Part shown: one piece after another, positions 13,635 to 36,302 of the stretch | How the letters are laid out: every line of letters starts with the position of its first letter | How positions within the stretch are numbered: position 1 is the first letter of the stretch | NCBI GenBank assembly: GCA_903903975.1 | Contig: CAIVAS010000216.1 | Coordinates: forward strand, 1-36,302 | DNA from: an uncultured Burkholderiales bacterium | Lineage (GTDB): Bacteria; Pseudomonadota; Gammaproteobacteria; Burkholderiales; Burkholderiaceae_E | Reading direction: 5' to 3' | DNA: 36,302 nucleotides | Translations under genes and position numbers: made by a program | The notes under the pieces: generated by a model | Told to the model about the DNA's origin: nothing | The model's input: the letters and a program-made list of their open reading frames with translations, nothing else | The model's database searches: none

Positions 13635-14621
13635 ATGAATCGCTTTCGTCCCGATCGCCGCAACGTCCTTGGCGCAAGCGCCGCACTGGCGACGATGCTG
13701 GTCGGTGCCGATCGCCTGCAGGCACAAACCGCCTGGCCGTCACGGCCGATCAAGCTGATCGTGCCCTACCCGGCCGGCGGCAACGCCGACTCGATCGGCC
13801 GCCTGCTGGCCGATCGGCTCTCGCAGGCGCTGGGCCAGCAGGTGATCGTCGAGAACCGGGTCGGCGCCGGCGCCACCATCGGCGCCCAGGCCGCTGCACG
13901 CTCGCCCGCCGACGGCTATACCCTGCTGCTCGCGCCCACCGCCGTGGTCGCAATCACCCACCATCTGCGCAAGGTGCCCTACGACCCCGAGAACGATTTC
14001 GTGCCGATCGCAAGCCTGTCGAGCAGCTACGGCATCGTTACGGCCCGCAAGGACCTGCCGGCCAACAACATGGCCGAGCTGATCGCGCTGGCAAAGAAGT
14101 CGCCGGGCAAGCTGACCTTCGGCTCGGCCGGCACGGCCACCGCGACCCATCTGACCGGCGAGATCGTCCACAACAAGGCCGGCATCACGCTGCTGCATGT
14201 GCCCTACAAAGGCTCGGCCGAATCACTCGCCGATCTGGTCGGCGGGCGCATCGACCTGATCTACGACCCGGTCGCGCTGTCGCAGATCAAAGCCGGAACG
14301 GTCAAGGCACTGGCCACAACCGCCAACGTTCGCCATCCCGAACTGCCCGATGTTCCCACCCTGCGCGAACAGGGTCTCGAGGTGCCGGGCGGCAGCTGGT
14401 TTGGCCTCTTTGCGCCGCGCGGCACGCCACCCGAGATCATCGAGCGGCTGGCACTCGAAAGCGAAAAAGCCATGTCGGCAAGCGGCACGAGGGAGTTGCT
14501 GCTGAAATTCAGTCAATATCCCGACTACAAGGGGCCGGCTGCATTCGCAAAACAGATCCAGTCGGACAATGCCGTCTATCGCGATCTCATCAATCGTGCC
14601 GGCATCAAGATCGATTCCTGA
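13635..14621 (+). CDS. Bug-family (TctC-like) substrate-binding protein 2
   Basis: This 328-residue periplasmic binding protein is a second, distinct member of the Bug family in the operon. The N-terminus MNRFRPDRRNVLGASAAL carries twin arginines ahead of a hydrophobic segment and an LQAQ-type cleavage site near residue 31. The mature protein begins WPSRPIKLIVPYPAGGNADSIG, matching the ligand-binding loop 1, and has the central LTFGSAGTATATHLTGE and LLHVPYKGSAESLADLVGGRID segments. GNADS and DPVAL suggest an acidic, carboxylate-coordinating pocket as in other Bugs, but no ligand can be named. CAGGAG precedes the ATG by 9 bases. Two binding proteins in one operon could serve two related acids, or one could sense substrate for a regulator. 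Confidence 0.92.
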   Translation: MNRFRPDRRNVLGASAALATMLVGADRLQAQTAWPSRPIKLIVPYPAGGNADSIGRLLADRLSQALGQQVIVENRVGAGATIGAQAAARSPADGYTLLLAPTAVVAITHHLRKVPYDPENDFVPIASLSSSYGIVTARKDLPANNMAELIALAKKSPGKLTFGSAGTATATHLTGEIVHNKAGITLLHVPYKGSAESLADLVGGRIDLIYDPVALSQIKAGTVKALATTANVRHPELPDVPTLREQGLEVPGGSWFGLFAPRGTPPEIIERLALESEKAMSASGTRELLLKFSQYPDYKGPAAFAKQIQSDNAVYRDLINRAGIKIDS

Positions 14622-14639
14622 GCCATCCATTCCTCACCG
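14610..14639. repeat. 15-bp duplication of the Bug-2 gene end
   Basis: ATCGATTCCTGAGCC (14610-14624) contains the last codons and stop of the binding protein. It is followed at once by ATCCATTCCTCACCG (14625-14639), matching at 11 of 15 positions. The copy keeps the reading frame, with TCA in place of the TGA stop. Taken alone it could be chance; it matters because neighbouring genes show clearer cases. Confidence 0.5.
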
Positions 14640-14649
14640 GAGACCCATC

Positions 14650-16038
14650 ATGACCCGCACCCATGCCGAAAACGTCCGCGAGGACGTCCGCAACCTGATC
14701 CATCCCTACACCCCGCTGAACACCTTCGGCGCAACCGGCCCGATGGTGATCCGCAAAGGCGATGGCATCTACGTCGAAGACGACCAGGGCAACCGCTTTC
14801 TTGAAGGCATGGCCGGCCTGTGGTGCACCGCGCTCGGCTTTTCAGAGCAGCGCCTGGTCGATGCCGCGATCCGGCAGATGAAGGAGCTGCCCTATTACCA
14901 GATCTTCGCCGGCCGCTCGAACGAGCCCTCGATCGAATTGTCCGAACGGCTGCTCGCGATGACCCGTCATCTCGGCATGGACAAGGCGCTCTTTGCCAAC
15001 TCCGGCTCCGAGGCCAACGATGCCGCGGTCAAGGTGATCTGGTACTACTTCAATGCACTTGGCAAACCCGAAAAGAAAAAGCTGATTGCGCGCGAGCGCG
15101 GCTATCACGGTGTCACCGTCATGGCGGCAAGCCTCACCGGTCTGCCCTACAACCATGCCGACTTCGACCTGCCGGTCGCACGCGTGCTGCGCACCGGCTG
15201 CCCGAGCCTGTATCACTCGACCCATCCGGGCGAGACCGACGAACAGATGGTCGATCGGCTGGTTGCCGACCTCGAAGCCCTGATCGCCCGCGAAGGCGCC
15301 GACACCATCGCCGCCTTCTTCGCCGAGCCGGTGCAGGGTGCGGGTGGTGTGATCGTGCCGCCAGCCGGCTACTTCGCAAAGATCCAGGCGGTGCTGAAAA
15401 AACACGACATCCTGCTGGTGGCCGACGAGGTCATCACCGGGTTCGGGCGCACCGGCAACATGTTCGGCTGCGACACCTATGGCATCAAGCCCGACATCAT
15501 GACCGTGGCCAAGGCGCTCTCAAGCTCCTACATGCCAATCTCGGCCACGCTGGTCTCCAAGACCATCTACGACGGCCTGGTCAAGGGCAGCGAGCGCAAC
15601 GGCACCTTCTCGCATGGCGTGACCTATGCTGGCCATCCGGTCGCCTCGGCGGTGGCCGTCGAAGCGCTGAAAATCTATGAAGAGCGCGACATCGTCGGCC
15701 ATGTCAAACGTGTCTCGCCCAAGTTCCAGGCACGCCTGGCGGCCCTCTCGGCCCATCCGCTGGTCTCATCAACCCGCGGCGTCGGTCTGATCGGTGCACT
15801 CGAAATCGTGCAGGACAAAGCGACCCGCAAGACCTTCGATGCCACGTCGGGCGTGATCGCACGGCTTGGCAATGCGGTGCTTGAAAACGGCCTGATCACG
15901 CGGCCGCTGCGCGACACGATGGCGGTCTGCCCGCCGCTCATCATCACCGAGACCCAGATCGACGAACTCTTCGACAAGCTCACCCGCGCGCTCGACACCA
16001 CGCTCGACTTCGCACGCGGGCTGAAGCTTGTCGCCTGA
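14650..16038 (+). CDS. Class III (omega) aminotransferase, PLP-dependent
   Basis: This 462-residue cytoplasmic aminotransferase belongs to the class III/omega-transaminase group, which moves amino groups from terminal amines (putrescine, beta-alanine, cadaverine and similar) to pyruvate or 2-oxoglutarate. Signatures include ANSGSEANDAAVKVIWYY (cofactor phosphate binding), RGYHGVTVMAASLTG, LLVADEVITGFGRTG with the PLP-nitrogen-binding aspartate, and K288 in VAKALSSSYMPISA as the Schiff-base lysine. The first residues NVREDVRNLIHPYTPLNTF are typical of the putrescine/pyruvate transaminase clade. The ATG at 14650 follows CCGGAGA; a longer frame starting inside the preceding gene is rejected. The next gene encodes an acetylpolyamine-deacetylase-like enzyme, supporting a polyamine or omega-amino substrate. 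The gene end opens a seven-unit tandem array. Confidence 0.93.
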   Translation: MTRTHAENVREDVRNLIHPYTPLNTFGATGPMVIRKGDGIYVEDDQGNRFLEGMAGLWCTALGFSEQRLVDAAIRQMKELPYYQIFAGRSNEPSIELSERLLAMTRHLGMDKALFANSGSEANDAAVKVIWYYFNALGKPEKKKLIARERGYHGVTVMAASLTGLPYNHADFDLPVARVLRTGCPSLYHSTHPGETDEQMVDRLVADLEALIAREGADTIAAFFAEPVQGAGGVIVPPAGYFAKIQAVLKKHDILLVADEVITGFGRTGNMFGCDTYGIKPDIMTVAKALSSSYMPISATLVSKTIYDGLVKGSERNGTFSHGVTYAGHPVASAVAVEALKIYEERDIVGHVKRVSPKFQARLAALSAHPLVSSTRGVGLIGALEIVQDKATRKTFDATSGVIARLGNAVLENGLITRPLRDTMAVCPPLIITETQIDELFDKLTRALDTTLDFARGLKLVA

Positions 16039-16118
16039 GATTGGCGGCCTGAGCTTGGCGGCATGAAGTTGGCAGTCTGAGATTGGCGGCATCAGGCTGC
16101 TCGCCTGAGCCTCACGCT
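16021..16118. repeat. 14-bp tandem array running from the aminotransferase 3' end through the spacer
   Basis: Seven consecutive 14-base units start at 16021, 16035, 16049, 16063, 16077, 16091 and 16105. Units 2 and 5 are both CTGAGATTGGCGGC, unit 3 differs by one base, unit 4 (ATGAAGTTGGCAGT) by four or five, and units 1, 6 and 7 are more diverged. Unit 1 (CTGAAGCTTGTCGC) is the last coding stretch (L-K-L-V-A) of the aminotransferase, and unit 2 begins with the bases holding its TGA stop. Because 14 is not a multiple of three the frame shifts with each unit, but a second in-frame TGA occurs three units later. The array takes up nearly all of the 102-base gap. Confidence 0.88.
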
Positions 16119-16140
16119 GCCGCGCGCAAGGAGCTGATCG

Positions 16141-17169
16141 ATGCAGATCTTCCACAGCCGGCTGCATGCCGGCCACGTACCCGACCGCTATGCCATCGGC
16201 CGGGACGTGTTGCCGGCGCGTGAGACCCCCGACCGGGTCGACGCGCTGCTCGGCGCCCTGCGCGATCGCGGCCACGATCTGCGCGAACCCATCGACCATG
16301 GTCTGGCGCCACTTCGCACGGTGCACACCGATGACTACCTGAACTTTCTGCAGACCGCCCACACCCGCTGGCAGGCACTGTTTGCCGGCACGCCACGCGG
16401 CGAATGGGTGCAGCCCTATGCCTTTCCCAACCGGCACATGAGCGCACGCCCCGACAGCGTGCTCGGCCAGGCCGGGCATTACCTGAGCAGCACCACCTCG
16501 CCGATCGGTGCCGGTACCTGGGCGGCGGTGCTGAGTGCTGCGCACTGCGCAGTCGACGGCGCCGATGCGGTGCTGGCGGGCGCACCGGTCGCGTATGCCC
16601 TGTGCCGGCCACCGGGTCATCATGCCTATGCCGATCTGGGCGCAGGTTTTTGCTACGTCAACAATGCGGCGGTGGCGGCGCATCGCCTTGCCGCGGCACG
16701 CGGTCGCGTGGCCATCCTCGATATCGACGTGCATCACGGCAACGGCACGCAGGGCATCTTCTGGTCTCGCGGCGATGTCTTGTTCGTGTCAGTCCATGCC
16801 GACCCCGACTGGGGCTATCCCTTCTTTGCCGGGCGCGCCGACGAAACCGGTGAAGGCGCGGGCGCAGGCCAAACGCTCAACCTGCCGCTGCCGCTGCGAA
16901 CCGGCGATGCCCCGTGGCTGGCGACGATTGACCGAGCGATTGCGGCCATCAAAGCCTTCGAGCCGGCAGCGCTGGTCGTCTCGCTGGGCTTTGATGCCTA
17001 CGAGAAAGACCCGTCCGCGCTGCTGTCGGTCAGCACCGCAGGCTTTCGCTGCGCCGGGCAGCGCATTGGCGCGCTCGGCATGCCGACCCTCCTGGTGCAA
17101 GAAGGCGGCTATGCGGTCGAAGACCTCGGCATCAATCTGGCCGCATTTCTCGAAGGCGTCGGGACCTGA
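16141..17169 (+). CDS. Histone-deacetylase-family amidohydrolase, acetylpolyamine amidohydrolase-like
   Basis: This 342-residue zinc hydrolase of the arginase/deacetylase fold is predicted to remove acetyl groups from N-acetylated polyamines such as acetylputrescine. The active-site residues fall almost where the characterised Mycoplana acetylpolyamine amidohydrolase has them: H160/H161 in CRPPGHHA, zinc ligands D196 and H198 in LDIDVHHGNGT and D285 in LGFDAYEKDP, and the transition-state tyrosine Y324 in QEGGYAVED. The segment FPNRHMSARPDSVLGQ and SSTTSPIGAGTW match the polyamine-specific subgroup better than eukaryotic-type HDACs. GCAAGGAG precedes the ATG. Following the omega-aminotransferase, it suggests a short route: deacetylation, then transamination of the free amine. 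Other acyl-amine substrates are possible. Confidence 0.91.
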   Translation: MQIFHSRLHAGHVPDRYAIGRDVLPARETPDRVDALLGALRDRGHDLREPIDHGLAPLRTVHTDDYLNFLQTAHTRWQALFAGTPRGEWVQPYAFPNRHMSARPDSVLGQAGHYLSSTTSPIGAGTWAAVLSAAHCAVDGADAVLAGAPVAYALCRPPGHHAYADLGAGFCYVNNAAVAAHRLAAARGRVAILDIDVHHGNGTQGIFWSRGDVLFVSVHADPDWGYPFFAGRADETGEGAGAGQTLNLPLPLRTGDAPWLATIDRAIAAIKAFEPAALVVSLGFDAYEKDPSALLSVSTAGFRCAGQRIGALGMPTLLVQEGGYAVEDLGINLAAFLEGVGT

Positions 17170-17172
17170 GGC

Positions 17173-17262
17173 GCATGACCAGACTGCCTGGTAACAGCCC
17201 CCTCAGTAACAGTCACCTTAGTACCAGTCACCTTAGTACCAGCCTCTTCAGTACCAGCCTCT
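17173..17262. repeat. 15-bp tandem array with repeated in-frame stop codons at the nitrilase 3' end
   Basis: On the minus strand six 15-base units run from the end of the nitrilase gene to within four bases of the deacetylase stop. The first unit, AGAGGCTGGTACTGA (17248-17262), is the last four codons plus stop (R-G-W-Y-stop). The next are AGAGGCTGGTACTAA (17233-17247), GGTGACTGGTACTAA (17218-17232), GGTGACTGTTACTGA (17203-17217), GGGGGCTGTTACCAG (17188-17202) and a diverged sixth copy (17173-17187). Since 15 keeps the frame, copies one to four each end in a stop codon, so the gene has four consecutive in-frame stops. The whole 78-base spacer is made of these copies. Confidence 0.9.
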
Positions 17263-18132
17263 TTTCACATCGGCGCCCAGCAGTTCGTCATAGACGTCTG
17301 TGCGCCGATCGCGCAGCACCTGGTTGTATTCGTTCCAGTTGCGCTTGCGACGAGCATCCGACAGGTTCACATCGGCATAAATGATGGCTTCATCGGTCTT
17401 TGATGCCGGCCCTGCCACCGGCCAGCCGGTGTAGCTCACGATCAGGCTCTCACCCAGGAAGAGCTGCCCGCGCTCGGTGCCCACCCGATCGGCAGCCGCC
17501 ACGAAGACCGAGTTCGAATGTGCTGCCGCCATGCACAGGATATTGGCCATCGCGCGCTGCGTCGGATCCTGCCCCGGAATCGGCACCCAGTTGGTCGGAA
17601 TACAGATGAGATCGGCGCCCTGCAATGCCAGCAGACGATAGCCTTCAGGGAACCAGCCGTCGTAGCAGATCATGGCGCCGATGCGACCGACCGGCGTGGC
17701 AAAGACCGGGAATCCGAGATTGCCCGGCTCGAAGAAAAGATTTTCTTCGTTCCACAGGTGAACCTTTCGGAAGGTGCCGATGTGACCCTCGGGGCCGACG
17801 ATGGCGGCCGAGTTGAACAGCACTGCACCCTCGCGCTCGGCAATGCCGGCAACGATGGTCAGATTGCGTTCTTTCGCAATCGCGGCCCAGGCACGCGTGG
17901 TCGGGCCATCGGGAATCTCTTCGGCCAATGCAAAGGCTTCCTCGCGCGTCTCGAAGACATAGCCTGAATTGGCCAGCTCGGGCAAGACGATGAGGTGCGC
18001 GCCACCATCGGCCGCACGGCCGATCAGCTCGAGGCTCTTTGCCACATTCGCCGCTTTTTCGCCGACTTTCGGCTCCATCTGGATACAGGCGATCCTGACC
18101 AGCGCTTCACTGCGACCCTTCCGATCATTCAT
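17248..18132 (-). CDS. Nitrilase-superfamily carbon-nitrogen hydrolase (amidase type)
   Basis: This 294-residue cytoplasmic amide hydrolase has the Glu-Lys-Cys catalytic triad of the nitrilase superfamily: glutamate in VLPELANSGY, lysine in TFRKVHLWNE and the nucleophilic cysteine in MICYDGWFPEGYRLLA. The substrate-pocket text CIPTNWVPIPGQDPTQRAMAN resembles stereoselective amidases and N-carbamoyl amine hydrolases more than true nitrilases. The ATG at 18132 is chosen because GGAGAG lies about 9 bases upstream and the beta-strand VRIACIQMEP then follows promptly; two earlier in-frame ATGs lack this. It is divergent from an amide-type ABC transporter that is followed by an amidase, so it probably hydrolyses an imported amide or carbamoyl compound. 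It is also convergent with the polyamine pair, which leaves carbamoylputrescine-like substrates possible. Confidence 0.91.
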   Translation of the reverse strand: MNDRKGRSEALVRIACIQMEPKVGEKAANVAKSLELIGRAADGGAHLIVLPELANSGYVFETREEAFALAEEIPDGPTTRAWAAIAKERNLTIVAGIAEREGAVLFNSAAIVGPEGHIGTFRKVHLWNEENLFFEPGNLGFPVFATPVGRIGAMICYDGWFPEGYRLLALQGADLICIPTNWVPIPGQDPTQRAMANILCMAAAHSNSVFVAAADRVGTERGQLFLGESLIVSYTGWPVAGPASKTDEAIIYADVNLSDARRKRNWNEYNQVLRDRRTDVYDELLGADVKRGWY

Positions 18133-18176
18133 CTCGACGCTCTCCATCAAAGTCATCAAACACAAAGCTTAGCGCC

Positions 18177-18203
18177 ACCATCACGAGGCTGGCGATGGTT
18201 TTT
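18177..18203 (+). terminator. Terminator-like hairpin with T tract
   Basis: ACCATC (18177-18182) and GATGGT (18194-18199) form a 6-bp stem with an 11-base loop, followed by TTTTT (18199-18203). It lies upstream of the transporter operon and could stop plus-strand transcripts that run through the nitrilase gene from the deacetylase operon. The short stem makes it weak. Confidence 0.3.
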
Positions 18204-18239
18204 CAACGACGGTATCGCAGCACATTCAGGTGCACTCAC

Positions 18240-18256
18240 AGCACCATCATGGCGCT
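18240..18256. promoter_or_regulatory. NtrC-like binding site upstream of the amide transporter
   Basis: AGCACCATCATGGCGCT matches the NtrC consensus GCACC-N5-GGTGC at nine of ten core positions and resembles the well-known glnA enhancer site. It is about 150 bases upstream of a sigma-54-like promoter, within the usual enhancer range. A perfect palindrome TGCATATGCA (18256-18265) touches it, and GGTGC-N7-GCACC lies just before it. It is a prediction from pattern only. Confidence 0.45.
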
Positions 18257-18399
18257 GCATATGCACCGCCGAAATCAATTGCCTCGGCAAGGAACGCCGG
18301 GTACATTGGGTCAGCGCCGGTGACGGTTATCGGCAAACCCCCCGGAAAACGGCTCTGATCCAAGCGACCGCTCGATTTGGCTACGCCGCAAATCAGGTC

Positions 18400-18415
18400 T
18401 GGTACGCGTTTTGCT
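18400..18415 (+). promoter_or_regulatory. Sigma-54-like -24/-12 promoter for the amide transporter operon
   Basis: TGGTACGCGTTTTGCT matches the sigma-54 consensus TGGCACG-N4-TTGCW at 11 of 12 fixed positions, with the required ten bases between the GG and GC dinucleotides. With an NtrC-like site upstream and an amide uptake operon downstream, nitrogen-limitation control is a sensible reading. One problem: the predicted start of transcription (about 18426) leaves only some four bases before the ATG at 18430, and no ribosome site is visible there. Confidence 0.45.
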
Positions 18416-18429
18416 CTGAACAGTTGCTC

Positions 18430-19287
18430 ATGGATACCGCCGTTCGCCTCGTCTTCGATATTGCCGCTTTCACCTCGGTGATCGTTCTGATCGTGCTCGG
18501 GCTCGGCGTGATTGCCAGCATGATGGGCATCTTCAATTTCGCGCATGGCGAGTTCGTACTGGTTGGCGCCTACACGCTCTTTCTGTTCCAGGAGTACGGA
18601 CTGCCGCTGTGGGCCGGCCTGATCGCGGCGCCGATCATCGTTGCCCTGCTGGGTCTGGTCCTCGAACGATTCATCATCCGGCGTTTTTACGCGGCACCGA
18701 TTCTCGCCATGCTCGGCACCTTTGCCATCGGCCTGGTGATCCGGGAGGTCATTCGAGGCCTGCTCGGCGGGCACTACAAATCGATCGAAGAGCCGCTGGC
18801 CGGAACCATCACGATCGGCGCGCTCAATTTTTCGGTCTGGCGCACGGTCATCATCGTGACGACCCTGATCGTGATCGCACTCAGCTATTTCTTTCTCGCC
18901 CGAACCTCGATGGGCCTGCGCATCCGCGGCTCGCTCGAGAACCCGATGCTGGCCCGGGCCAGTGGCATTTCCACCTCGCGGCTGTATGCGCTGACCTTCG
19001 CATTCGGATCGGCGCTGGCCGGTCTGGCAGGCGCGCTGATCGTGCCGCTGTATCAGCTTTCGGCCGACATCGGGATCCGCTTCCTGGTGCAGGCCTTCCT
19101 GTCCGTGATGCTTGGCGGTGTCGGTACGTTCGAGGGCCCTGTCCTCGGCGCGGCAGCGGTGGGCGTCATGGCGGCCGGTCTGCCCTGGGTGGTCAACCCG
19201 GTGCTGGCCGACCCGCTGGTTTTTGTCATCGCACTCGCCATCGTGAAATTCCGCCCGCAGGGCTTCATCTCTCAAGGGAGACTCTGA
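18430..19287 (+). CDS. Urea/amide-type ABC transporter permease (UrtB/LivH family)
   Basis: This 285-residue inner-membrane permease of the hydrophobic-amino-acid/urea/amide (HAAT) class has about eight hydrophobic segments. The family motif MMGIFNFAHGEFVLVGAY follows the first membrane helix, and GLRIRGSLENPMLARASGISTSRLYALTFAFGSALAGLAGAL is the cytoplasmic coupling region that contacts the ATPase. The end (KFRPQGFISQGRL) is typical of UrtB. ATG 18430 is chosen because it sits just before the first helix; longer frames upstream have no hydrophobic start and cross the control region. No clear ribosome site precedes it, which is unusual for this window. It is the first gene of a five-gene transporter operon, whereas in the canonical urea operon the binding protein comes first. 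Confidence 0.92.
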   Translation: MDTAVRLVFDIAAFTSVIVLIVLGLGVIASMMGIFNFAHGEFVLVGAYTLFLFQEYGLPLWAGLIAAPIIVALLGLVLERFIIRRFYAAPILAMLGTFAIGLVIREVIRGLLGGHYKSIEEPLAGTITIGALNFSVWRTVIIVTTLIVIALSYFFLARTSMGLRIRGSLENPMLARASGISTSRLYALTFAFGSALAGLAGALIVPLYQLSADIGIRFLVQAFLSVMLGGVGTFEGPVLGAAAVGVMAAGLPWVVNPVLADPLVFVIALAIVKFRPQGFISQGRL

Positions 19288-33774: not shown

Positions 33775-33864
33775 GGTCGGATTACTCGGAAAGACGGGAT
33801 TAAAAGGGATTGAACAGGCGCGACTCAGGTGCGAAGCGCCATTGTCGGGTTGAATGGTGCGGCG

Positions 33865-33906
33865 ATCAAAGGGCAGCGATCACAGCACGGCAATCAAAGG
33901 GTATTT
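33865..33906. repeat. 14-bp imperfect tandem repeat at the MFS gene 3' end
   Basis: On the minus strand three 14-base units end in TGAT: AAATACCCTTTGAT (33893-33906, containing the last codons and TGA of the transporter gene), TGCCGTGCTGTGAT (33879-33892) and CGCTGCCCTTTGAT (33865-33878). Units one and three match at 10 of 14 positions. A fourth, poorer unit may follow. The rest of the 119-base gap to the dehydrogenase gene shows only two AATCCC words near 33800. Confidence 0.5.
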
Positions 33907-35156
33907 GCCGCGGGGTCGGCTGCGGCGGCCCGCACCGGACGCGGCGGCGGGCTGGCAAAGTAGAACAGCAATGAACCGAGGCCCACCAGCACGGCGAGCA
34001 CGGTAAAGCCGGTGCGGTAGTTGCCGGTGATGTCGGCCAGGCCACCCGCGATCATCGGGCCGCCGATCTGGCCGATTGCCACGATCAGCGTCGACAGCCC
34101 CATGATCATGCCGATCGAGCGACGTCCGAAATAGTCGGCCCGAATCGCCTGCATCAGCGGCCCGCGCAAGCCCCAGGCCGCGCCATGCAGCAACGCGAAT
34201 CCGACCAGCATCGCCAGGCCCTGTGCCCAGGCCAGCAGCATCAGCCCGGTGCCATGCATGAGCATGCAGAAGGCCGCCAGCAGGCGCTTGTTGAGCCGGT
34301 CACCGAAGGCCATGCCGGCCAGCACGCCGACGATCTGCGAGGCGGTCATGAGCGTGATGACCAGCGAGGCCTGCGCCACGGTGTAGCCAAGCGACTCCTT
34401 GATGAGGGTGATCGCATGGACATTGACCGCGGTGACCGCCAGCAGCGCAAAGCCGTGACCGAGCGAGACCAGCCAGAAGGCCCGCGTACGCAGCGCCTCG
34501 CGGGCAGTGAACTCGACGACCCCCTCATCGGAGGCGTTGCCGGCAGCCGCCTTGGCCGCCCCCCAGTCGCCGTCGATTTCCTGGCCAAGCGCCTGCGGGC
34601 GATCCTTGAAAAGCAGCGAAATCGGCCCGCAGAGCACGATGATCAGCACACCGGACCACATCGCGGTCGAGCGCCATCCGAAGGTCTGCATCGAGCCGGC
34701 CACCAGCGGCACGAACAGGCCGCCGACCGCCATGCCGAGCCCGACGATCGACAGCGCCCGTGCGCGATAGCGCTCGAACCAGTGGATCACCGCGATATTG
34801 ATCGGAAAGTAGCCGGCCAGGCTGGTGCCCAGCGCAATCACGACCAGCGCCGCATAAAAACTGCCGAGCGAATCGACCCGGCTGAGCGCGATCATGCCGG
34901 CGCCGAAAATCAGCACGCCAATCCTGATCAGCCGATAGGGCCCGAACCGATCGCACAACCAGCCGAGCACCGGGCCGATGACTGCGGATTCCATCGACTG
35001 CAGCGCCGCACCGCCCGACAGCGCGGTCTTGCTCCAGCCTTTTTCAGCGGCAAGCACCGCCACATAAGCACCGAAGGCCTGCTGCATCAGGGCGGCCTGA
35101 AGCAATTGCAGGGTGGTGCCCGCGGCGACCATGCGCCAACCGTGAAAAGCCTTCAT
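33894..35156 (-). CDS. MFS transporter, monocarboxylate/oxalate-formate-antiporter-like
   Basis: This 420-residue inner-membrane carrier has 12 predicted hydrophobic helices in two halves separated by a hydrophilic loop (KDRPQALGQEIDGDWGAAKAAAGNASDEG). The loop between helices 2 and 3 reads GWLCDRFGPYRLIRIG, the MFS signature region, and the second half has FGDRLNKRLL at the matching place. ATG 35156 (MKAFHGWRMVAAG) is preferred to an ATG 41 codons upstream because the extra residues are hydrophilic, Arg/Pro-rich and unlike any family N-terminus; neither has a strong ribosome site. The general form suggests export or import of a small carboxylate. It is in line with, but 119 bases upstream of, the acyl-CoA dehydrogenase. 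Confidence 0.9.
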   Translation of the reverse strand: MKAFHGWRMVAAGTTLQLLQAALMQQAFGAYVAVLAAEKGWSKTALSGGAALQSMESAVIGPVLGWLCDRFGPYRLIRIGVLIFGAGMIALSRVDSLGSFYAALVVIALGTSLAGYFPINIAVIHWFERYRARALSIVGLGMAVGGLFVPLVAGSMQTFGWRSTAMWSGVLIIVLCGPISLLFKDRPQALGQEIDGDWGAAKAAAGNASDEGVVEFTAREALRTRAFWLVSLGHGFALLAVTAVNVHAITLIKESLGYTVAQASLVITLMTASQIVGVLAGMAFGDRLNKRLLAAFCMLMHGTGLMLLAWAQGLAMLVGFALLHGAAWGLRGPLMQAIRADYFGRRSIGMIMGLSTLIVAIGQIGGPMIAGGLADITGNYRTGFTVLAVLVGLGSLLFYFASPPPRPVRAAAADPAANTL

Positions 35157-35164
35157 GAGAAGAC

Positions 35165-35295
35165 CGATTGTGTCCCACGCCGACCAATCGTGCCGTCTCG
35201 GGCGTTCCGGCAATCGGAAACCGGCAGGAGAGGCGCCGGGATGGGCATCGCGGATTGACCCGGCAACTTGACAAGCCATGCACCGTGGCTACCCT
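35165..35295 (+). promoter_or_regulatory. Divergent spacer with candidate promoter and inverted repeat
   Basis: The 297-base gap 35157-35453 separates the MFS gene and the reductase-like gene. TTGACA (35268-35273), 16 bases and TACCCT (35290-35295) form a possible sigma-70 promoter toward the reductase-like gene; the -10 is poor. CGATTG-N14-CAATCG (35165-35190) lies immediately upstream of the MFS start and could be an operator. A 15-bp tandem duplication is listed separately. No gene was recognised in the gap. Confidence 0.33.
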
Positions 35296-35376
35296 TCCAG
35301 ATTGCCTTGAACGCTGGCCGCAGCGCTTGGCGCGTGCTGCCAGCGCACAGTGCGCGCCGGTCTGAGCGCATCACGC

Positions 35377-35406
35377 GCCGGGCTTGCGAACGCCGGGCTT
35401 GCGAAC
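35377..35406. repeat. Perfect 15-bp tandem duplication
   Basis: GCCGGGCTTGCGAAC occurs twice in direct succession (35377-35391 and 35392-35406) in the leader of the reductase-like gene, 48 bases before its start. The copies are identical, so the duplication is probably recent or maintained. Unlike the other short arrays in the window it lies at a 5' side. Confidence 0.85.
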
Positions 35407-35453: not shown

Positions 35454-36302
35454 ATGTCAGACGAACAGGAACTGCCGGATATGGCGCCACTGTGGGACGT
35501 CCCCGTCCCGTATATCCGCCGCACCCACGACTGGTACAACGCACTGGGCTACGGCAACCCCTACCGCTATGCGCAGTACACCGAGGTGCCCTTCCAGGCG
35601 CTGGCCAAACCCCTGTCGCGCTCGCGCGTGGCACTGCTCACCACCGCCGCTCCCTTTCAGGCCGACAAGGGCCCGCAAGGCGCCGGCGCACCCTACAACG
35701 CGGGGGCCAAGTTCTACAAGGTCTATACCGGCGACACCTCGATCGATCACGATCTGCGCGTCTCGCATGTCGGCATCGACCGCGATCACCTCACCGATGA
35801 CGCCAACACCTGGTTCCCGTTGCCGGCGCTGCGACGCGCAGCCGCGAGCGGTCACATCGGCGAGATCGCGCCCCGCTTCGTGGGGGTGCCGACCAACCGC
35901 AGCCAGCGCCACACCCTGACCACCGACGCCGCCGAAGTGCTGGCGATCCTGCGTGCCGATCGGGTCGATGCCGCCGTGCTGGTGGCCAATTGCCCGATCT
36001 GCCATCAGACGATCAGCCTGACCGCAAGGCATCTCGAGGCCAACGGCATTCCGACGGTGGTGATGGGCGCAGCGAAGGACATCGTCGAGATGTGCGGTGT
36101 GCCCCGCTTTCTGTTCAGCGACTTTCCGCTGGGCAATGCCGCGGCGCGCCCGAACGATCCGGCATCGCAGGACGCCACACTCGAACTGGCCTTGCGGGTG
36201 CTCGAATCGGCGGTCGCACCCCGCACCACCGTCCAGAATCCGCTGCGCTGGAATGGCCGCCCCGAGTGGCGCCTCGACTATCTCGATCTGTCGCGTCTGA
36301 GC
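35454..36302 (+). CDS. Glycine/sarcosine/D-proline reductase B-subunit-like protein, partial (C-terminus outside window)
   Basis: The first 283 residues run open to the window edge. The protein resembles the selenoprotein B (GrdB/PrdB) family: PFQALAKPLSRSRVALLTTAAPF near the start, the conserved block HDLRVSHVGIDRDHLTDDANTWFPLPALRRAAASGHIGEIA (about 99-137, cited here as HDLRVSHVGID and DDANTWFPL), and a redox site C180-P-I-C183 in VANCPICHQT. No in-frame TGA is present, so cysteine takes the place of any selenocysteine. HLEANGIPTVVMGAAKDIVEMCGVPR follows as in the family. AGGAG lies 7 bases before the ATG. In anaerobes the family cleaves C-N bonds of glycine, betaine or D-proline; cysteine forms in aerobes have no settled role. 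No GrdA, GrdC or thioredoxin partner is visible in the window. The family match is good, the function is not known. Confidence 0.82.
   Translation, partial: MSDEQELPDMAPLWDVPVPYIRRTHDWYNALGYGNPYRYAQYTEVPFQALAKPLSRSRVALLTTAAPFQADKGPQGAGAPYNAGAKFYKVYTGDTSIDHDLRVSHVGIDRDHLTDDANTWFPLPALRRAAASGHIGEIAPRFVGVPTNRSQRHTLTTDAAEVLAILRADRVDAAVLVANCPICHQTISLTARHLEANGIPTVVMGAAKDIVEMCGVPRFLFSDFPLGNAAARPNDPASQDATLELALRVLESAVAPRTTVQNPLRWNGRPEWRLDYLDLSRLS

Follow-up and report, generated by a model that had tools for sequence, protein, structure and literature searches.

The tandem array of 15-bp units between two convergent genes of an uncultured Burkholderiales bacterium is quite probably a degenerate minisatellite, the product of tandem duplication and slippage acting on a tolerant zone at the 3' end of a nitrilase-like gene. 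The stop codons that it carries in frame with this gene are best read as a by-product of minisatellite growth. Other gene-end arrays of the same genome have the same build and a different sequence, and such arrays look like harmless copying slips, not a built-in safety brake. The array lies in a stretch of 36,302 nucleotides (the window; its features are given in Table 1), and the wider scans of this genome were performed on a sample of 1,002,862 bp (25% of the genome, window included) with 810 genes. The gene calls in all scans are those of our own hexamer caller, not of a published one, and their starts are approximate.

The array and its copies

Between 17265 and 17176, the minus strand carries six units in head-to-tail order. 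Copies 1-5 are clear, and the sixth is weak, agreeing with the consensus at 9 of 15 positions (counted by eye) and lacking a stop; of the six copies counted in an earlier note on this DNA, five are thus beyond doubt and one is decayed. The same note had described four consecutive in-frame stops (TGA, TAA, TAA, and TGA), which were confirmed at 15-bp spacing on the minus strand. It had further described each unit as RGWY or a variant followed by a stop, but RGWY itself is found only in the first unit past the stop, the later ones reading GDWY, GDCY, and GGCY. The copies had been said to make up the whole intergenic space, which is nearly so: they cover 72 bp (17176-17247) of the 78-bp gap (17170-17247).

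Table 1. Features of the window, with the array copies in order from 17265 and their translation in the nitrilase frame
Feature	Position	Strand	Unit	Description
Nitrilase-like gene	17248..18165	-		Array at its 3' end; ATG at 18132 is the preferred start
Convergent gene	16141..17169	+		Called a deacetylase in the earlier note; stop 21 bp from the TRF array
Copy 1, likely founder	17251..17265	-	AAAAGAGGCTGGTAC	Last five nitrilase codons, KRGWY; GWY-stop end common in homologs
Copy 2	17236..17250	-	TGAAGAGGCTGGTAC	Nitrilase's own stop TGA (17250-17248), then RGWY
Copy 3	17221..17235	-	TAAGGTGACTGGTAC	TAA (17235-17233), then GDWY
Copy 4	17206..17220	-	TAAGGTGACTGTTAC	TAA (17220-17218), then GDCY
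Copy 5	17191..17205	-	TGAGGGGGCTGTTAC	TGA (17205-17203), then GGCY
Copy 6, decayed	17176..17190	-	CAGGCAGTCTGGTCA	QAVWS, no stop
Second array, same build	16033..16109	+		14-bp units, about five copies, across the aminotransferase-like stop
Third array	33862..33901	-		14-bp units, 2.9 copies, across the stop of gene 33894-35279

The nitrilase-like gene matches NF040852 with an E value of 2.3e-74, a match that falls under the curated cut-off of that model, and the convergent gene has no NCBIfam match. A plus-strand reading frame of 69 amino acids (17175-17384) crosses the array; it is probably a by-product of the array, with no evidence of a gene.

The array has a TRF score of 75. With a minimum of 2.5 copies and periods of 9-40, TRF found 64 arrays in the sample of this genome, 13 of which score at least 75. 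Five 60-bp-block shuffles of the sample returned 0, 1, 1, 1, and 3 arrays, none scoring at least 75; therefore, the array at the nitrilase end is far beyond chance. It consists of tandem head-to-tail units beyond chance expectation, as a minisatellite does, and, as a fail-safe device would, it has more than one stop in the nitrilase frame (four). The genome is in 270 contigs, and assembly errors can come from arrays. An assembly artefact is nevertheless barely credible here, given that the copies are diverged rather than identical and that, at other loci, homologous arrays recur at the same gene end in separate genomes (G006 and G009).

Origin of the array

The C terminus of the nitrilase, GWY followed by a stop, recurs in homologs from several bacterial groups (by record titles), and the gene's own GWY-stop end is probably the founder of the array. 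Of 92 homologous loci examined, 21 lack a complete reading frame by the motif filter, and 71 have a readable end (some loci appear under two ids, and the reading at L164 ends early). At 70 of these ends, no tandem repeat begins closer than about 20 nt to the stop. The remaining end, L161, holds an unrelated 12-bp repeat that starts 12 nt past the stop codon. Relatives with one stop and no array, which the earlier note had held to speak against its proposal, were thus found, but only among homologs of at most 81% protein identity, the closest obtained. The genus neighbors have no close homolog of the nitrilase (best 73%), and G006, G009, and G011, which rank with the genomes most similar to this one at other genes, have only distant matches to it. 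Used as a DNA query against its own genome, the array region (17100-17340) matched only itself (E ≤ 0.001, at which very short matches could escape), and the units of the other arrays differ; a dispersed, MIRU-like mobile repeat family was rejected on these grounds.

We infer that a segment of ~15 bp across the nitrilase stop was tandemly duplicated. Slippage or unequal pairing would have raised the number of copies to five or six, and these would then have drifted apart through point mutation. Such an array could survive because a unit that contains a stop leaves the upstream protein unchanged and because the first tens of bases past a gene would tolerate insertion. The extra stops would be in frame because the copied stop recurs at a period that is, by chance, divisible by three.

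Gene-end arrays in this genome and its relatives

The 64 TRF arrays of the sample comprise 32 in coding sequence, 15 over a stop, six within 20 bp of a stop, two over a start, and nine elsewhere in gaps. Stop-overlapping TRF arrays were also found in G009 (four in 170 gene ends), G010 (two in 32), and G011 (one in 174, sitting in doubly called coding DNA), and there are none in the 481 gene ends of G004, G003, G113, G153, and G018. Among 75 public loci, one such array was found in 355 gene ends, so that the excess in this genome over the public loci alone is modest (15/760 vs. 1/355, P = 0.029). When this genome, G009, G010, and G011 are set against the other five genomes and the public loci, the counts are 22/1,136 and 1/836 (P = 6 × 10−5), a grouping picked after the counts were seen and not in clean agreement with kinship. 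Judged by two genes, G004 and G009 are about equally similar to this genome (G004 vs. G009: 80 and 78%, 93 and 92%), and G010 is further away (52%). The notion that the arrays mark a clean subclade was rejected, as G004 is without TRF stop arrays; their spread among related genomes is patchy.

A permissive two-copy scan was also performed on smaller samples. Noncoding arrays overlapping a stop were 16 of 41 in this genome (5.0 expected), one of six in G004 (0.9 expected), three of eight in the family member G153 (1.0 expected), and eight of 44 in the eight other genomes pooled (5.1 expected, hand-summed). MutS, RecJ, and XseA are all present in this genome, and a loss of mismatch repair or of the two single-strand nucleases was therefore rejected as the cause; a search for MutS found none in G005 and G008.

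Within the window, the second array spans the stop of an aminotransferase-like gene (14569-16038) and is out of frame. A 15-bp duplication at 35376-35406 (CGCCGGGCTTGCGAA, 2.1 copies, 100% matches) was observed upstream of the gene at 35454. In-frame repeats of 12/24 bp occur within coding sequence at L040:17004-17090 and L216:3123-5462 (peptides ESDI and SDVL repeated) and are the coding counterparts of the gene-end arrays.

Turnover between species

Orthologous gene pairs with at least 70% identity between this genome and G009, G011, G004, or G010 (n = 188) were compared under a strict scan. An array was present in this genome only in 12 pairs, in the relative only in seven, in both in none, and in neither in 169; independent turnover events are fewer than these counts because arrays between convergent genes were scored at both genes. 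The G009 ortholog of the aminotransferase-like gene, 96.5% identical, is without the 14-bp array. Two arrays are nevertheless shared. One lies at the end of a gene that we take to be GTPase-like; its units measure 12 bp in this genome and 13 bp in G006, and almost every copy has TGA. The other, the third array of the window, is under the threshold of the strict scan and also occurs in G009, where the three TGA are likewise spaced 14 bp apart. Past the same gene, this array is followed by an 11-bp unit (the two together lie in 33781-33901), which is single here and present in four copies in G009, the flanks being near-identical; this whole-unit change is most simply read as an expansion in G009.

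The earlier note had offered a trace of slippage as one of its two readings, and this reading is supported by the common C terminus as the likely founder, by the repeat-free ends of 70 of the 71 homologs, by the arrays of the same build in the genome, and by the whole-unit difference at another locus.

Position of arrays relative to stop codons

Over the full sample of this genome, the permissive scan gave 127 tandem clusters, 52 of which are not mainly coding. If arrays were placed at random in noncoding DNA, 6.5 stop overlaps would be expected, and 19 were seen (P = 4 × 10−6); for starts, 6.4 overlaps were expected and three seen (P = 0.10). This null is too simple, because stop-spanning duplications may begin inside the gene end without any change to the protein. 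Where the unit takes in the entire stop, the protein is unaffected, and thus the permitted starts reach one unit length before the stop. With each array counted once, array starts fall on 14 of 11,370 positions from -15 to -1 and on 19 of 19,913 positions from 0 to +44 (P = 0.49). The two intervals are about equally dense; therefore, what stands out is the zone immediately after the stop rather than the stop itself. The idea that the stop codon as such is targeted was accordingly dropped once these protein-neutral positions were counted, and an effect of the 3' zone remains.

Array starts are rare deeper inside genes, and their density drops beyond 45-75 nt past the stop. Array coverage is highest in convergent gaps (4.5%), lower in co-directional ones (1.45%), and lowest in divergent ones (0.43%). 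In the 92 co-directional gaps of at least 120 bp, arrays take up 3.4% of the first 60 nt past the stop, 0.55% of the middle, and 1.3% of the last 60 nt before the start. The fall in density past the stop counts against a degenerate minisatellite in merely tolerant DNA, and the low mid-gap coverage is not obviously predicted by plain tolerance. The excess of stop overlaps over the random-placement null, the somewhat better keeping of stop triplets (below), and the two shared arrays that keep their stops likewise count against this explanation.

These patterns bear on the proposal of gene-end-targeted mutation, according to which, in this genome and part of its relatives, tandem duplications form mainly at 3' ends through a process linked to the termination of translation or transcription. 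We regard it as rather unlikely, and it is compatible with the minisatellite explanation, to which it would add a cause, in that where arrays form would depend on the mutation process as well as on tolerance. The proposal could account for the gradient of coverage among gap types, for the coverage just past stops being six times that of the mid-gap, and for the periods of stop-spanning arrays, which are all 11-15 bp; the contrast between grouped gene ends (22/1,136 vs. 1/836) also favors it, the grouping having been chosen post hoc. Nevertheless, arrays could be kept out of the remaining gap by constraint on promoters and leaders, and the stop is not favored within the zone. Kinship is not cleanly followed, with G004 and G009 about equally similar to this genome and TRF stop arrays found only in the latter, and the G011 array sits in doubly called coding DNA. 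In the permissive scan, G153 has three stop overlaps where 1.0 is expected, and the eight other genomes pooled have eight where 5.1 are expected. Furthermore, arrays of 12 and 15 bp occur in coding DNA of this genome too, and its MutS, RecJ, and XseA are present. A more specific version, to which we give an outside chance, is that in some members of one Burkholderiales genus a process at the end of translation or transcription drives duplication of 11-15 bp at 3' ends and so produces stop arrays in multiple frames, perhaps mildly retained. One conceivable driver is the opened DNA beyond the stop codon, together with a transcript left unshielded there.

Reading frame and retention of stops

The other reading of the earlier note was a fail-safe device, in which the copies are retained because their in-frame stops catch ribosomes that read through a leaky TGA. 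The four in-frame stops at the nitrilase end are what such a device would have, and TAA stands twice where the gene has TGA, a change that remains a stop. The period keeps the frame in this array, as had been noted, but this does not extend to the class: the period is divisible by three in only six of the 21 stop-spanning array/gene-end pairs, about chance level, the nitrilase array being among the six. Divisibility by three is more frequent in coding arrays (48/75) than in noncoding ones (21/52; P = 0.011). A second in-frame stop within 60 nt is more common at array-bearing gene ends (14/21) than at others (306/737; P = 0.025), which seems to favor backup stops, but this surplus is expected because copying a stop yields one.

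If the stops were under selection, they would be expected to outlast the rest of the unit. At 22 gene ends (17 in this genome, three in G009, and two in G010, with some arrays counted from both sides), stop triplets were kept as stops in a fraction of 0.84, and other triplets were unchanged in 0.59 (P = 0.008), in a set that is biased because inclusion partly needed a matching stop. Nine arrays are freer of this edge effect (those extending 4 nt or more upstream of the stop, with a single gene end taken for each array and the second L041 row dropped). In these, the fractions are 0.83 for stop triplets and 0.60 for others (P = 0.078; P = 0.21 for the exact triplet), and with later copies alone 0.78 and 0.51 (P = 0.078), so that significance is lost without the edge-biased arrays. 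In the two arrays shared between species, the stops are preserved in full or almost in full. At most, the excess in retention is a weak hint of selection for backup stops.

The absence of a tandem repeat at all but one of the readable homologous ends also argues against such a device. In the systematic test of Ho and Hurst (2019; PMC6764699), additional stops in eubacteria were reported to be scarce rather than enriched, with no evidence of selection for them. A fail-safe terminator is thus not supported and is, in our judgment, improbable. The minisatellite explanation, with in-frame stops as its by-product, is preferred.

Other possible functions

The array occupies the gap between convergent genes, and the plus strand of its unit has more C than G, both of which would suit a transcription terminator, a Rho loading site, or a structured RNA common to the two genes. 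Nonetheless, neither a terminator-like site (a GC-rich stem followed by a T run) nor a promoter-like site was found within 17000-17400. The array folds no better than shuffled sequences on either strand (z = 1.06 and 0.13), and no Rfam family reaches the gathering score within 15900-18600. Gene ends with stop-spanning arrays show no excess of C over G (mean 0.00, P = 0.79). With each search negative, a terminator, an RNA structure, an Rfam family, and a Rho-type bias were all rejected, and a role of this kind is highly improbable.

Relation to known repeats and significance

Minisatellites, or VNTR loci, of bacteria arise by slipped-strand mispairing. The arrays described here resemble them in their short head-to-tail units, in the divergence of copies, and in whole-unit differences between relatives. 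They differ in that the noncoding arrays cluster just past genes, often include the stop codon, and have each their own sequence. Taken singly, the array at the nitrilase end is an ordinary kind of thing.

Tandem or additional stop codons are reportedly found in yeasts (PMC1088959). The arrays share with such stops, and with those surveyed in eubacteria (Ho and Hurst 2019), the presence of further in-frame stops beyond the primary one, but here these come from duplication of a segment that holds the stop, and across the class the frame is usually lost. MIRUs (mycobacterial interspersed repetitive units), the nearest named gene-boundary repeats considered, are also short and disturb reading frames little; according to a review (PMC12548453), they are apparently mobile and insert at start codons, whereas the arrays here differ in sequence from one another and their proposed founder, where there is one, is the local gene end. 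No description of stop-spanning tandem arrays in bacteria was recognized in the open-access literature searched.

The class of arrays shows a route to gene ends with multiple stops that needs no selection, as a stop-spanning duplication leaves the protein as it is. It is thus a warning against taking tandem stops for fail-safe devices. Furthermore, the genomes that bear such arrays could allow a direct measurement of how often, and where, short tandem duplications arise.
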